Source of the DNA: Acidobacteriota bacterium | GTDB lineage: Bacteria; Acidobacteriota; Terriglobia; 20CM-2-55-15 | Reading direction: 5' to 3' | Assembly (NCBI GenBank): GCA_022821145.1 | Contig: JAJEEE010000013.1 | Coordinates: 1-64,000 of the forward strand | Length of the DNA stretch: 64,000 nucleotides | Part shown: piece after piece, positions 18,286 through 56,983 of the stretch | Numbering within the stretch: the stretch's first letter is position 1 | Layout of the letters: each line of letters starts with the position of its first letter | The notes under the pieces: generated by a model | Databases searched by the model: none | What the model saw: only the letters and a program-made list of their open reading frames with translations | What the model was told of the DNA's origin: nothing | Made by a program: the position numbers and the translations under genes

Positions 18286-19322
18286 CCGCCCGTCTCGTCC
18301 CCTTGCTCGATCATTTGCTCGACGAGTCCCCTCAGGCGGGCAAGCTCGGCGGCCATCTTGGGCAGCCTCGATATGTGGGCCTGCTGGATCTTGATGTCGT
18401 CGAGCGGCCGCGCCGGAGTGCCCCAGAAGACGCGGCCCGCGCGAATCCGTTTACCGCTGGGAATGCCGCATTGAGCGCCCACGACGCCGCCCGCGTCGAT
18501 CCTGACGTGGTCGGCCACCCCGACCTGTCCGGCGATGACGGCGTCGTCCCCGATATCGCAACTGCCCGACACGCCCGTCTGTGCGGCAATCACCGTGCGC
18601 GCGCCGATGCGAACGTTATGGGCGACGTGCACCAGGTTGTCCAGCTTGGCGCCCCGCTCGATGCGCGTCGATCCGAGCGAGCCGCGATCGATCGTGCTGT
18701 TGGCGCCGATCTCGACGTCGTCCTCGATCCGGACCTGCCCCAACTGGGGGAATTGGACGTATTCGTCCCCGTCCCGCACATAGCCGAAACCGTCGGATCC
18801 GACGACGACGCCCGCATGCAGAACGACGCGGCGCCCGATCTCGACCCCCGGGTAAAGCACGACGTTGCTGCGAATCGTACAGTTCTCGCCGATTCGGCAG
18901 CCGGCGGCGATGTGGCATCCCGGATAGACGGCGGTCCCGCTCCCGATGACCGCGTCCGCCTCAACGACGACATGCGCGCCGATATGCACGCCGGTTCCGA
19001 GCCGCGCGCCTGGGCGAACCACGGCGGTCGGATCCACGCCGGGCTCGGGGCGGACGGCGGGCATGAGCCAGCCGGCCGCGCGGGCGAACGCCGCCTTGGG
19101 ATTCCGCACCGTGATCGTCGTCTTGCCCGGAAACGCCCCTTCGGACACGAGTACGCAGGATGCGCGGCTCGACGGCACCCGATTCGCGTAACGCGGTTCG
19201 GCATAGCTGAGATCACCCGGCCCGGCGGCTTCGAGCTCGGCCACGTTGTCGATGGACTCGCCGGGCTCCCCGTCGAGCGCGCCGCCGAGCAGCGCCGCCA
19301 ACTCTCCGGCTGTTCGTTTCAT
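18282..19322 (-). CDS. lpxD: UDP-3-O-acylglucosamine N-acyltransferase
   Basis: Third enzyme of lipid A synthesis; adds the N-linked 3-hydroxyacyl chain to UDP-3-O-acyl-glucosamine at the inner membrane face. The 346-residue protein has the N-terminal uridine-binding domain (LAALLGGALDGE through ITVRNPKAAFARA), a left-handed beta helix built of hexapeptide repeats (about 105-290), and the catalytic His in NLVHVAHNVRIG. A C-terminal helix follows PARPLDDIKI. The start overlaps hemG (ATGA) and the end overlaps fbp (ATGA). With lpxC in this window it supports an LPS-bearing outer membrane. Confidence 0.96.
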   Translation of the reverse strand: MKRTAGELAALLGGALDGEPGESIDNVAELEAAGPGDLSYAEPRYANRVPSSRASCVLVSEGAFPGKTTITVRNPKAAFARAAGWLMPAVRPEPGVDPTAVVRPGARLGTGVHIGAHVVVEADAVIGSGTAVYPGCHIAAGCRIGENCTIRSNVVLYPGVEIGRRVVLHAGVVVGSDGFGYVRDGDEYVQFPQLGQVRIEDDVEIGANSTIDRGSLGSTRIERGAKLDNLVHVAHNVRIGARTVIAAQTGVSGSCDIGDDAVIAGQVGVADHVRIDAGGVVGAQCGIPSGKRIRAGRVFWGTPARPLDDIKIQQAHISRLPKMAAELARLRGLVEQMIEQGDETGG

Positions 19323-50616: not shown

Positions 50617-51492
50617 TCAGATGCCCGCCCGGAGCGCCGCCGGCTCGCGGGTCTCGATCGACCAGTGGGCCGTGCTCTCCAACAAGCCGGCGACGAACCG
50701 GGTGTGCAACGCGTGACCCGCGCGGTTTGCGACGAGCCGTCCCAGCACGAGCCTTCCGATCAAGGCGAAATCGCCGAGCAGATCGAGAATCTTGTGGCGG
50801 ACGAACTCGTCCCTGAATCGCAGCGGCTCCTCGTTGAGCATGCCGGCGGCGGTGAGCCCGATCGCGTTCTCGAGCGACGCTCCCTGGATCAGGCCGTTCT
50901 GCCGCAACGCCTCGACCTGGTCTTCGAACCCGAACGTACGCGCGGGCGCGATCGACGCCGCGTAGCCTTCGGGCGTGCAGTCCAGCGACAGTCGCTGGAG
51001 GCCGATGAACGGATGCTCGAAGTCGATGGTACAGTCGACCTGGAACGTCTCGGCCGGATAGATGGCCAGCGACTTTCCATCTTCCTCCACCACGAACTCG
51101 CGATCCACGCGCAGATATTCCCGAAGCCGGTTCTGCCGGACGAGCCCGACCCGGGCGATGGCTTCGGTGAACGGGCGAGCGCTCCCGTCCAGGATCGGAA
51201 CCTCGAGGTTGTCCATGTCGACGTAGGCGTTGTCGACGCCGATCCCGTAGAAGGCCGAGAGCAGGTGTTCGACCGTCGAGATCCAGACGCCCTTCGACAT
51301 CAAGGTCGTCGCGTAAGCCACCCTGGAAACCGACGCCACTCCCGCGCGGATTTCGAAGTTGTCGAGATCGACGCGGCGGAATACGATGCCTGTGCCCGCG
51401 GGCGCGGGACGTACGGCTATGGAAACCGAGACCCCCGTGTGCAACCCGACGCCGGAGAATTCGATCACGCCGGCCAGCGTTCGCTCATGCAT
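50617..51492 (-). CDS. lpxC: UDP-3-O-acyl-N-acetylglucosamine deacetylase
   Basis: Zinc-dependent deacetylase, the committed step of lipid A synthesis. The 291-residue protein has FSGVGLHTG at the start, the zinc-binding His in STVEHLLSAFYGIGVDN, LDGSARPF, and the second metal/catalytic block VRHKILDLLGDFALIG. The ATG at 51492 matches the family; an in-frame ATG at 51603 would add a tail lacking homology. It lies alone, convergent with comF and divergent from polA across 113 nt. Confidence 0.96.
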   Translation of the reverse strand: MHERTLAGVIEFSGVGLHTGVSVSIAVRPAPAGTGIVFRRVDLDNFEIRAGVASVSRVAYATTLMSKGVWISTVEHLLSAFYGIGVDNAYVDMDNLEVPILDGSARPFTEAIARVGLVRQNRLREYLRVDREFVVEEDGKSLAIYPAETFQVDCTIDFEHPFIGLQRLSLDCTPEGYAASIAPARTFGFEDQVEALRQNGLIQGASLENAIGLTAAGMLNEEPLRFRDEFVRHKILDLLGDFALIGRLVLGRLVANRAGHALHTRFVAGLLESTAHWSIETREPAALRAGI

Positions 51493-51605
51493 CGCGCCTT
51501 GTCCCGTGCAATCGGCGTGCCTAACGGCCGGATCAATGGAATGAATCACTTGAGACAGGGTCATCTCGACGGGGCGTGTCTCGCAGTGCACAGTTCTGCT
51601 CACCG

Positions 51606-54201: not shown

Positions 54202-54275
54202 GGGCACGTAGCTCAGTTGGAACGAGCGCTACCTTGACACGGTAGAGGTCATCGGTTCGATCCCGGTCGTGCCCA
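54202..54275 (+). tRNA. tRNA-Val (GAC anticodon)
   Basis: A cloverleaf can be drawn: acceptor GGGCACG pairs CGTGCCC, the D-arm has GCTCAGTTGG, the anticodon stem CTACC/GGTAG encloses the loop TTGACAC with anticodon GAC (valine), and the T-arm carries GGTTCGATCCC. The discriminator is A and CCA is not encoded. It follows polA by 85 nt. This is the only tRNA found in the window. Confidence 0.92.
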
Positions 54276-54458
54276 TTCGTTTAGCCGATTCCCCATCTAT
54301 AGCGTATCTGCATATCGCGTCTTCCTGGCCGCTTGTCTCACCGGAGCCGCCTGAGCCCCCAGGAGCCGCCAGAGACGCCGGTCGTTCCACGGACGTCTGG
54401 CCGCTCAACGACGCGTCCCGGGCGCCGTGGTATTCTGCATTTTTTGGGAGGAAGTCTC

Positions 54459-54824
54459 ATGTCCGAAGTGGAATCGATCACGAAAACGACGCTGCAGGAA
54501 ATCGAACGGCTGCTGAACACGAAGACCGTGGTGGGCGAACCGATCACCCTGGAGGGGGCCACGCTCATCCCGCTGGTCAGCTTCGGCTTCGGCTTCGGTG
54601 TGGCCGGCGCCGGCGGCAAGGACGACACGGGCGAAGAGGACAAGAACGTCACCGGCGGGGCGGGCGGCATCAAGCCCGTCGCGGTCATCGTCATCGATCA
54701 GGACGGAGTCAAGGTCGAGCCCGTCAAGCGCGGCAGCGGCCGGGTGCTGGAGAGAATCGTGGAAACGGTCACCAAAGGCGTCGAAAACGTGACGATCGGC
54801 AAACCCAAGGACAGCCAGGAATAG
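54459..54824 (+). CDS. GerW/YtfJ-family protein
   Basis: A 121-residue cytoplasmic protein. It has an N-terminal helix (ITKTTLQEIERLLNTKTVVGEPI), TLIPLVSFGFGFGVAGAGG glycine-rich core, and GGIKPVAVIVIDQDGVKVEPV, the GerW signature; E and K-rich linker between. In Bacillus, GerW is needed for spore germination, but homologues occur in non-spore-formers where the role is unknown. The ATG has a GGGAGGA site 9 nt upstream. It leads a three-gene group and is 12 nt from the DUF2953 gene. Confidence 0.88.
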   Translation: MSEVESITKTTLQEIERLLNTKTVVGEPITLEGATLIPLVSFGFGFGVAGAGGKDDTGEEDKNVTGGAGGIKPVAVIVIDQDGVKVEPVKRGSGRVLERIVETVTKGVENVTIGKPKDSQE

Positions 54825-54836
54825 CGGGATCCCGCG

Positions 54837-55418
54837 ATGCTCCTGGCCGTTCTCGTCACGGTGTCGGTCCTGACGGCCTTGCTCCTGGCGCCCGTCGACC
54901 TCGTCTTCAAGATCGGCAGGCGCGACTCGATTCGAGCCGACGTTTCCGTGCGATGGATGTTCGGTCTGGTCGAGTTCGATCCCAGGGCGGTGCGAGGACG
55001 CGGCCGGCGTATCCGGCGCCGAGCGCTTCGCCGGGGCGGGATGGCGCTCCGCTTCTCTCAAGCGTTGCTTTCCGCGGCGCGCCGCCGCGCCGCGTTCCGG
55101 CGCCGTCTGCTGCGATTCTTCCGGGCCGCCGCGGCCGCCGTTCGGCCGCGCGACTTCCACCTGCGCCTCCGGTTGGGGTTCGACGACCCCGCGGACACGG
55201 GAATGGTATGGGCGTGCCTGGGCCCGGCCATCGCGGTGCTCGGCGCCCGCTCGGGACCCGGACTGGACGTCGGGGCCGACTTCGAACGGGAAAGGCTCGA
55301 GTTCGAAGTCGCGGGCAAGCTCCGCGTCGTGCCGGCCCGCCTGATTGCCGCCGCCGGCGCCTTCGCGCTGTCGCCGGTGACGTTGCGGGCGATGTGGACC
55401 GCATGGAGGCGGGCGTGA
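54837..55418 (+). CDS. DUF2953 (YtfI-like) membrane-anchored protein
   Basis: A 193-residue protein with an N-terminal membrane helix (LLAVLVTVSVLTALLLAPVDLVF), an Arg-rich middle (RGRGRRIRRRALRRGG, about 52-95), and a conserved C-part with DFHLRLRLGFDDPADTGMVWACLGPAI that is the DUF2953 core. In Bacillus, ytfI (DUF2953) lies next to ytfJ/gerW, so synteny supports the family call. Function is unknown. The stop overlaps the following gene by GTGA. Confidence 0.75.
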   Translation: MLLAVLVTVSVLTALLLAPVDLVFKIGRRDSIRADVSVRWMFGLVEFDPRAVRGRGRRIRRRALRRGGMALRFSQALLSAARRRAAFRRRLLRFFRAAAAAVRPRDFHLRLRLGFDDPADTGMVWACLGPAIAVLGARSGPGLDVGADFERERLEFEVAGKLRVVPARLIAAAGAFALSPVTLRAMWTAWRRA

Positions 55419-55669
55419 GCCTCTTGCGCGCCGGGACGCCTCTCGATGGCGGCTCGTGCACGATCGTTCCGATCGAGGAGGTCGGCGTCGACAGTTACCC
55501 GGCGCCCGGCGGCGCGTGGGCCTACGGGTACAAGGCGCCGGCCGCCGTGATCGTGTGCCGTCCGCCCGACATCCGGGCCGTCGGCATGCGCGGCGAGGAC
55601 ATCGACGTGGACGAGCTGGCCGGTCGGGTCCCCGGACTCGGCGCCCTGCTCGACGCCTACCGCTCGTAA
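55415..55669 (+). CDS. Short GerW-like paralogue
   Basis: An 84-residue product starting from GTG that overlaps the DUF2953 stop; an ATG 12 nt upstream is also in frame. The pattern GTPLDGGSCTIVPIEEVGVD...GAWAYGYKAPAAVIV mirrors GEPITLEGATLIPLVSFGFG...GGIKPVAVIV of the GerW protein two genes upstream, so I read it as a shortened, divergent GerW fold lacking the N-terminal helix and most glycines. This is an inference from side-by-side reading, not an alignment. Function unknown. Confidence 0.6.
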   Translation: MSLLRAGTPLDGGSCTIVPIEEVGVDSYPAPGGAWAYGYKAPAAVIVCRPPDIRAVGMRGEDIDVDELAGRVPGLGALLDAYRS

Positions 55670-55732: not shown

Positions 55733-56035
55733 TCAGGTGTCCGCCTTTACCAATTCGACGGTCAGGCGCGTGCCGGTCGCTTCGGCGTAACGCCGCAACG
55801 TGGCGAACGTCGGCGACACTCCCCCGCCCTCGAGCCGCGCGATCGCGGACCGGGTCGTGCCCAGGCGCCGGGCGAGTTCCGCCTGCGTCAGCTTGGCCGC
55901 CGCTCGCGCGTGAACCAGCGCCTCGATCAGCGTGAACTCGTCGTTGGCGCGGACATACTTCTCTCGGAATTCCGGGTCTTCCATCAGGTGCTTCTTCAGG
56001 TCCTGCAGCTTCGTCACGACGTCACCTGTTTTCAC
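55733..56035 (-). CDS. HigA-like XRE-family regulator, orphan antitoxin
   Basis: A 100-residue cytoplasmic DNA-binding protein. Residues about 50-90 form an HTH_3 domain (AKLTQAELARRLGTTRSAIARLEGGGVSPTFATLRRYAEATG), and the preceding FTLIEALVHARAAA is typical of HigA-type antitoxins. No HigB or RelE-like toxin is found on either side (66 nt to the GerW-like gene, 15 nt to the BtuF gene). The GTG at 56035 is one start; a GTG at 56017 preceded by AGGTGA is another. Confidence 0.8.
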   Translation of the reverse strand: MKTGDVVTKLQDLKKHLMEDPEFREKYVRANDEFTLIEALVHARAAAKLTQAELARRLGTTRSAIARLEGGGVSPTFATLRRYAEATGTRLTVELVKADT

Positions 56036-56050: not shown

Positions 56051-56983
56051 CTACCCCTGCCGGGGCGTCCACGGCCGCCAGCCCCGACCGCGGTGGCCGA
56101 AGTCGAAGCGCTCCGGGTGGAGGCATTCCGCCAGGATCTCGGCCGATTCCACGACGCGCGGCCCGGGACGGTTGAAGTACTGGTTTCCGTCCGTGATGAC
56201 CACGCGGCCTTCGCGAACGGCGGACAACTCCGCCCACGCCGGGTGCGCCACCAGCGGCCGCATCTCGCCCCACGCGCGGTCGATGTCGAACCCGCAGGGC
56301 ATGATGGCGATGACGTCCGGGTCGGCCGCCGCAAGGTCTTCGAACGGGAAGTACCCGGAATGCTTTCCGGCTTCCCCAAACAGGTTGTCGCCGCCCGCCG
56401 CGTCGACCAGCTCCGGCATCCAGTTGCCAGCGTTCATGAGCGGGTCTATCCACTCGATGCACGCGATGGAAGGACGGGCGGCAACGGTCCGCGTTTGGCC
56501 GCGGAGCGCCTCGAGCCGGGCCTGGAGGCCCGCTACGAGAGCGTCGCCGCGCTCCGCGTCGCCAAGCGCCGACGCCACGGCCCGGATGTCGGTCCACACG
56601 TCGTCCAGCGACATCGGCTCCAGCGACACGACGGCCGGCCGGGAGCCGACCAGCTCGCACACGGCCGCCTCGACGTCCTTGAGGCTGACGGCGCACACCT
56701 CGCACTGCGTCTGCGTGATGACGACCGTGGGAGCCAGACGGTCCAGCAGCTCGGGATCCACGCGGTACACGGACAGGCCCTCGGAGACGATCGCCCGGAC
56801 CTCGGCGTCGATATCGGCGCCCGACGCTCCGACCTCGACCTTGGAGCTCGAGCAGGCCGGCAGGCGCGTCACCGAAGGCGGGTAGTCGCACTCGTGCGAG
56901 CGGCCGACCAGCTCGGACTCGAACCCCAGCGCGCAGACGATCTCGGTCGCGCTGGCGATCAGGGACACCACGCGTTGCGCCAT
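56051..56983 (-). CDS. BtuF-like cobalamin-binding protein without signal peptide
   Basis: A 310-residue periplasmic-binding-protein fold of the class III (helical backbone) type. It starts MAQRVVSLIASATEIVCALGFESELVGRSHECDYP, the BtuF-like signature, and has ITQTQCEVCAVSLKDVE, CIEWIDPLMNAGNWMPELV and the late TDGNQYFNRPGPRVVES. No export signal precedes the fold, so it may be cytoplasmic or exported by an unusual route. It follows a small membrane protein by 9 nt, both downstream of a cobalamin riboswitch, which supports B12 as the ligand. btuC and btuD are absent. Confidence 0.85.
   Translation of the reverse strand: MAQRVVSLIASATEIVCALGFESELVGRSHECDYPPSVTRLPACSSSKVEVGASGADIDAEVRAIVSEGLSVYRVDPELLDRLAPTVVITQTQCEVCAVSLKDVEAAVCELVGSRPAVVSLEPMSLDDVWTDIRAVASALGDAERGDALVAGLQARLEALRGQTRTVAARPSIACIEWIDPLMNAGNWMPELVDAAGGDNLFGEAGKHSGYFPFEDLAAADPDVIAIMPCGFDIDRAWGEMRPLVAHPAWAELSAVREGRVVITDGNQYFNRPGPRVVESAEILAECLHPERFDFGHRGRGWRPWTPRQG

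Follow-up and report, generated by a model that had tools for sequence, protein, structure and literature searches.

GerW (YtfJ) of Bacillus is a soluble protein whose expression is specific to the forespore; a role in germination was proposed for it and later withdrawn, and the same source gives the function as unknown (PMC4366231). Among the uncharacterised inner-membrane proteins of Bacillus cereus spores, a membrane proteome recorded one of the DUF2953 family (PMC8624511). The initial annotation of the locus described here held that the two genes are neighbours in spore formers, and this was the case in all 14 Firmicute loci that we collected, where the genes adjoin in the order DUF2953-GerW and a third gene is absent. 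Our locus lies in a stretch of 64,000 nucleotides from an Acidobacteriota genome (the whole stretch is called the window hereafter), where a GerW gene and a DUF2953 gene are followed by a short third gene, whose product we call mini-GerW.

Layout of the three-gene locus

The examination of positions 54459-55669 confirmed the annotated GerW gene, DUF2953 gene and overlapping 84-aa gene (PF09579, PF11167 and an overlap of 4 nt), all on the + strand, with polA and a gene for tRNA-Val(GAC) (54202..54275, +, predicted by ARAGORN) upstream. The first gene (54459..54824, +) is preceded by GGAGG at 54447-54451 and encodes a protein of 121 aa with an N-terminal helix, a KTVVGEPI motif, a glycine-rich β-hairpin and a C-terminal helix. 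The product matches PF09579 (Spore_YtfJ) at E 1.2e-14 over model positions 5-78 of 81; its score is 54.7 bits, where 25 is the cut-off. With TIGR02874 it scores 53.4 bits, far under the equivalog cut-off of 116.3. Judged by these profiles, it is a member of the GerW family and not the sporulation equivalog. Its identity is 44-56% to GerW proteins of the triplet type and 23-34% to those of the DUF2953-GerW types found in Firmicutes and in the same class. The structural model of this protein is poor (pLDDT 62.5, pTM 0.38), and a Foldseek search with it gave no credible match, the model being too poor for a claim on the fold; such a poor single-chain model would be compatible with an obligate oligomer, though it is no proof of one.

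The second gene (54837..55418, +) encodes 193 aa. Its match to PF11167 (DUF2953) covers model positions 2-53 of 53 and passes narrowly, with 22.9 bits against a cut-off of 22, and an iterated profile built from it reaches the Firmicute DUF2953 proteins that adjoin GerW. The AlphaFold2 model has a mean pLDDT of 91.5 and shows a single N-terminal membrane helix at about residues 1-20, a strongly basic helical hairpin at residues 49-101, and an α/β domain bearing a conserved GLGDPADTG segment; Foldseek and VIA-align searches with this model gave no credible match. Across the family, the N-terminal helix has a mean hydropathy of 2.84 and the helix at 49-83 a mean net charge of +7.1. Since the only membrane helix is N-terminal and is followed by a very basic segment, application of the positive-inside rule to the sequence and model predicts that the α/β domain faces the cytosol. 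The gap that separates the first two genes is occupied by a 12-nt perfect palindrome (GCGGGATCCCGC, 54824-54835), and no clear Shine-Dalgarno sequence was seen there.

The third gene (55415..55669, +) encodes 84 aa corresponding to the GerW core without the N-terminal helix and the glycine-rich hairpin. Its GTG start at 55415 overlaps the DUF2953 stop (TGA, 55416-55418) by 4 nt (55415-55418) in the form GTGA, and a GGAGG at 55405-55409, within the DUF2953 gene, stands before it with a spacer of 5 nt, so that 55405..55418 (+) forms a putative site of translational coupling. An alternative ATG at 55403 would give a product of 88 aa. Because of the GGAGG five nucleotides upstream and the overlap with the stop of the second gene, the GTG is, as read from the sequence, most likely the start.

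Downstream, a gene for an HTH_3 (XRE-type) regulator of 100 aa (55733-56035, -) is convergent to the triplet and adjoins a Peripla_BP_2 gene (56051-56983). The regulator resembles a HigA-type antitoxin, and a toxin gene beside it is absent. We also considered the tRNA-Val gene as an integration site and rejected this reading: a short blastn search revealed neither a duplicated tRNA end nor an att-like repeat, and among triplet loci the adjacency to this tRNA is confined to the genus of the window.

Coding status and kinship of the third gene

The reading frame of the third gene is also open far upstream, which is a common effect in DNA of 67-70% GC, and the openness of the frame alone therefore proves nothing. 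The GC contents at the three codon positions form a coding-like pattern only beyond the end of the DUF2953 gene, with 0.76/0.55/0.91; further upstream, where the frame runs through the GerW and DUF2953 genes, the values are 0.82/0.70/0.51. In addition, dozens of homologues occupy the same position in other loci.

The initial annotation read the third gene as a shortened paralogue of GerW and proposed a profile comparison of the two, and the kinship was indeed found by profile methods. The window's third product on its own matched nothing in Pfam (at E 10) or NCBIfam and is not filed under PF09579, and BLASTP of the window's GerW against it gave a non-significant E of 0.51. Such a pairwise comparison is uninformative, since single sequences are too weak and the homology becomes visible only through family profiles. 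When we searched the open reading frames of 106 fetched loci with the window's third product in one phmmer round, about 45 matches fell below E 1e-3, each of them following a DUF2953 gene as the third gene of its locus; GerW proteins were not among them. An iterated HMM started from the third gene draws in GerW proteins, and this result was set aside as possibly circular. We then relied on a third-only profile rebuilt from the first-round matches and tested against reversed decoys; its GerW matches were numerous and reached E 6.4e-9, and at E 10 none of the reversed sequences was hit. Comparison by hhalign of a profile from 43 third products with one from 54 GerWs gave a probability of 97.1% (E 6.3e-11, 75 columns), compared with 0.1-0.5% for reversed or column-shuffled GerW alignments and 0.2% for the DUF2953 alignment. 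When the third products were scanned singly, 19 of the 43 matched PF09579, the best at 3.8e-6, and no other family matched more than one of them. Based on these sequence comparisons, we conclude that the third product is a true homologue of GerW and not a coincidence of motifs.

The alignments show what was kept and what was lost. The window's third product retains five of the seven invariant positions of GerW, namely G26, P28, P38, P73 and A75, which correspond to G11, P13, P23, P46 and A48 in the 88-aa form of mini-GerW. The β core is kept in the third products, the N-terminal helix and the glycine-rich hairpin are absent, and the mean glycine content falls from 17% in GerW to 7%. Outside the genus of the window, homologues are 20-38% identical to the third gene.

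The shorter length of the third product and the few residues that it has in common with GerW in a pairwise view might suggest that it arose recently by tandem duplication of this genome's own gerW and is perhaps decaying. However, the third genes of several phyla fall into one clade with 100/99 support in a tree built on few columns, which refutes a local origin and places the duplication far back; the gene is moreover intact in both the window and a sister genome, with coding-like GC at its codon positions. We regard a recent copy as hardly credible. The window and the sister genome differ at 5-7 sites per gene, too few for dN/dS. As far as the tree and alignments can tell, mini-GerW is an old GerW subfamily of single origin, so that the homology in the original reading stands and the paralogue is an ancient one rather than a recent local duplicate.

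Distribution, inheritance and the sporulation question

A profile scan of genome contigs yielded 80 loci, 66 from outside the Firmicutes and the 14 Firmicute loci mentioned above. The order GerW-DUF2953-third gene on one strand was found in 55 of the 66 (31 in Pseudomonadota, 21 in Chloroflexota and one each in Acidobacteriota, Myxococcota and Nitrospinota), and in each of the 54 loci measured the third gene shares the strand of DUF2953 and starts at -25 to +22 nt relative to the stop of that gene. Among the other 11 loci, four break off close to the site (L054, L067, L072 and L087), the third gene of one is diverged (L069, i-Evalue 2.4e-6 in a single-sequence test), and six carry GerW-DUF2953 without a third gene at the site (L029, L031, L037, L064, L073 and L081). 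No third gene was found elsewhere in the genomes of these six, which shows that mini-GerW is not always needed and is dispensable in some genomes. In one of the 55 triplet loci (L071), part of the sequence from DUF2953 to the third gene is masked, and an apparent fusion of the two was rejected as an artefact of a scaffold gap (a run of N).

The host itself bears on whether these genes have to do with spores. The initial annotation had taken lpxC and lpxD as signs of a diderm, and both are present in the window, LpxC at 50617-51603 and an LpxD match at 19074-19253 (-). The latter lies in an open frame of 775 aa and is one of two LpxD matches in the genome, the other being on a different contig, at G000:C3:128543-128740. 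One idea is that the genes are left over from a sporulation programme now lost, or mark a spore-like stage; it draws on the forespore-specific expression of GerW in Bacillus (PMC4366231) and on the Pfam name, which denotes a sporulation protein. Against it, neither Spo0A nor SpoIVA was found in the window's genome, which is 99.33% complete, and Spo0A was not found in ten other triplet genomes, Pseudomonadota included; the score of GerW far under the TIGR02874 cut-off and the grouping of the triplet with those of non-spore-formers rather than with Firmicute pairs, described below, speak against it as well. The idea is thus largely refuted, and we hold it to be very improbable. The likeliest reading is that the triplet is a conserved unit unconnected with sporulation, as had been suggested at the outset, with a host lacking both markers and with triplets in non-spore-formers of distant phyla.

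The expected conservation of the triplet held among non-spore-formers, though it did not extend to the nearest relatives outside the genus. With this qualification, neither of the two outcomes that would have counted against the initial annotation, a third product with no profile similarity to GerW or a triplet missing from related genomes, was observed. Among the relatives of the window, the triplet was found only in the window's genus. PF09579 was not found in nine genomes of the same family belonging to other genera, and in a sample of 396 genomes of the phylum the third gene was detected only in the window's own genome and in none of the other 395. When GerW and DUF2953 were concatenated for a tree (quick method, midpoint root), the DUF2953-GerW loci of the Firmicutes and of eight genomes of the window's class made up one side of a branch with 99% support, and the window nested among triplets of Nitrospinota and Pseudomonadota with 99% SH-aLRT, away from the DUF2953-GerW loci of its own class. 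Since the triplet is absent from the nearest relatives outside the genus and present in distant phyla, the sequence data make it most likely that the genus of the window acquired the whole operon horizontally.

The distance matrices of the three proteins correlate with r values of 0.81, 0.63 (GerW/third product) and 0.72 (DUF2953/third product), the maximum with shuffled data being 0.18. No conserved flanking genes were found across the phyla. Based on this agreement of distances and the differing neighbours, we suggest that the three genes move and evolve as one unit.

The triplet was also found on complete plasmids of Sulfitobacter and Leisingera (L107 and L108), annotated there as 'GerW family protein', 'DUF2953 domain-containing protein' and 'hypothetical protein', the third products having been recognised by eye; as these are cultured isolates, the matches argue against a binning artefact. 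The plasmid neighbours comprise a universal stress protein, ppsA, acsA, pdhA and cytochrome c, together with a Na/Pi symporter, a formate/nitrite transporter and ATP synthase genes, and they possibly hint at a context of energy stress. The patchy, horizontally acquired distribution with changing neighbours, and the residence on roseobacter plasmids beside universal stress protein, cytochrome c, ppsA, acsA and ATP synthase genes, would suit an accessory system that spreads by horizontal transfer and serves in stress, in defence or as a toxin-antitoxin system. We consider such a system improbable, because the triplet gave no match in PADLOC or in phages, contains no toxin-like domain, and does not cluster with defence genes, as judged from 111 neighbour proteins.

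Proposed assembly and comparison with known systems

We put at about even the chance that the three genes form one translationally coupled operon for a small membrane-associated assembly unrelated to endospores. GerW would self-associate through its glycine-rich hairpin, and mini-GerW, which lacks the hairpin surface, might bind GerW as a heteromeric partner and so cap, limit or adapt the assembly. DUF2953 would anchor this assembly on the cytosolic side of the cytoplasmic membrane. The model is favoured by the core common to GerW and mini-GerW, by the strict coupling and by the co-inheritance, and the genomes without a third gene weaken it.

It may also be that the genes are co-transcribed and co-inherited while their products act separately in a common pathway, DUF2953 and mini-GerW as a membrane unit and GerW alone in the cytosol. 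The distances of DUF2953 and the third product agree somewhat better than those of GerW and the third product (r 0.72 against 0.63), and the third gene overlaps DUF2953 at its start in most loci, with GerW and DUF2953 usually a few nucleotides apart. However, the difference in correlation is also explained if DUF2953 and the third gene evolve faster, and the link between GerW and DUF2953 is older and more constant, as seen in the six genomes without a third gene and in the pairs of the Firmicutes and of the window's class. We find separate action rather unlikely.

The assembly model can be taken further, and we do so tentatively, with more doubt than confidence: GerW, DUF2953 and mini-GerW may constitute a widespread cytosolic membrane machine of non-sporulators, in which a paralogous pair works as a hetero-oligomer on a membrane anchor. 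If this is true, the 'spore' GerW-DUF2953 pair of the Firmicutes is one specialised branch of a general system, and the task of GerW is open to study without spores. The occurrence of the triplet in at least five phyla of non-spore-formers suggests that the role of GerW is not spore-specific, and it makes GerW an unsafe marker gene for sporulation in metagenomes. Cultured triplet hosts (Saccharospirillum, Leisingera and Sulfitobacter), together with the partner protein, offer a tractable route to the function of GerW.

Neither the triplet nor the third family was found described in the open-access literature searched, a coverage that leaves most subscription journals outside. PDB sequence searches returned no relative, and neither solved structures nor the libraries scanned offered a hint of the biochemistry. 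The closest described system is the Firmicute GerW/YtfJ with DUF2953. The same homologous genes adjoin, the core TKTVVGEPI ... P ... G-rich ... P.A is common to both, and in both GerW is soluble and DUF2953 a membrane protein. In contrast, the gene order there is DUF2953-GerW without a third gene, while the window has GerW-DUF2953-third gene; the aligned Firmicute GerWs are 28-34% identical to that of the window, and the forespore-specific expression of Bacillus GerW (PMC4366231) is impossible in the window's host.

Within the window's own class, pairs (L004-L010 and L013) and solo GerW genes (L014-L026) are likewise members of PF09579, and the pairs include DUF2953. The pairs differ from the window in their reverse order, the lack of a third gene and a GerW only 23-25% identical to the window's, and they lie beyond the 99% branch. 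The solo genes of L014-L024, without DUF2953, come from many genomes of the class; their PF09579 match extends only to about position 59-69 of 81, and they represent a third type of GerW. One genome of the class (G047; L025/L026) has two tandem GerW-domain genes of 135 aa and 267 aa without DUF2953, which are a separate duplication of GerW. The triplets of Dehalococcoidia, Pseudomonadota and Nitrospinota, on the other hand, share with the window the gene order, strand, spacing and third-gene subfamily and differ from it only in sequence divergence and neighbours, and it is with these that the window belongs by the tree.
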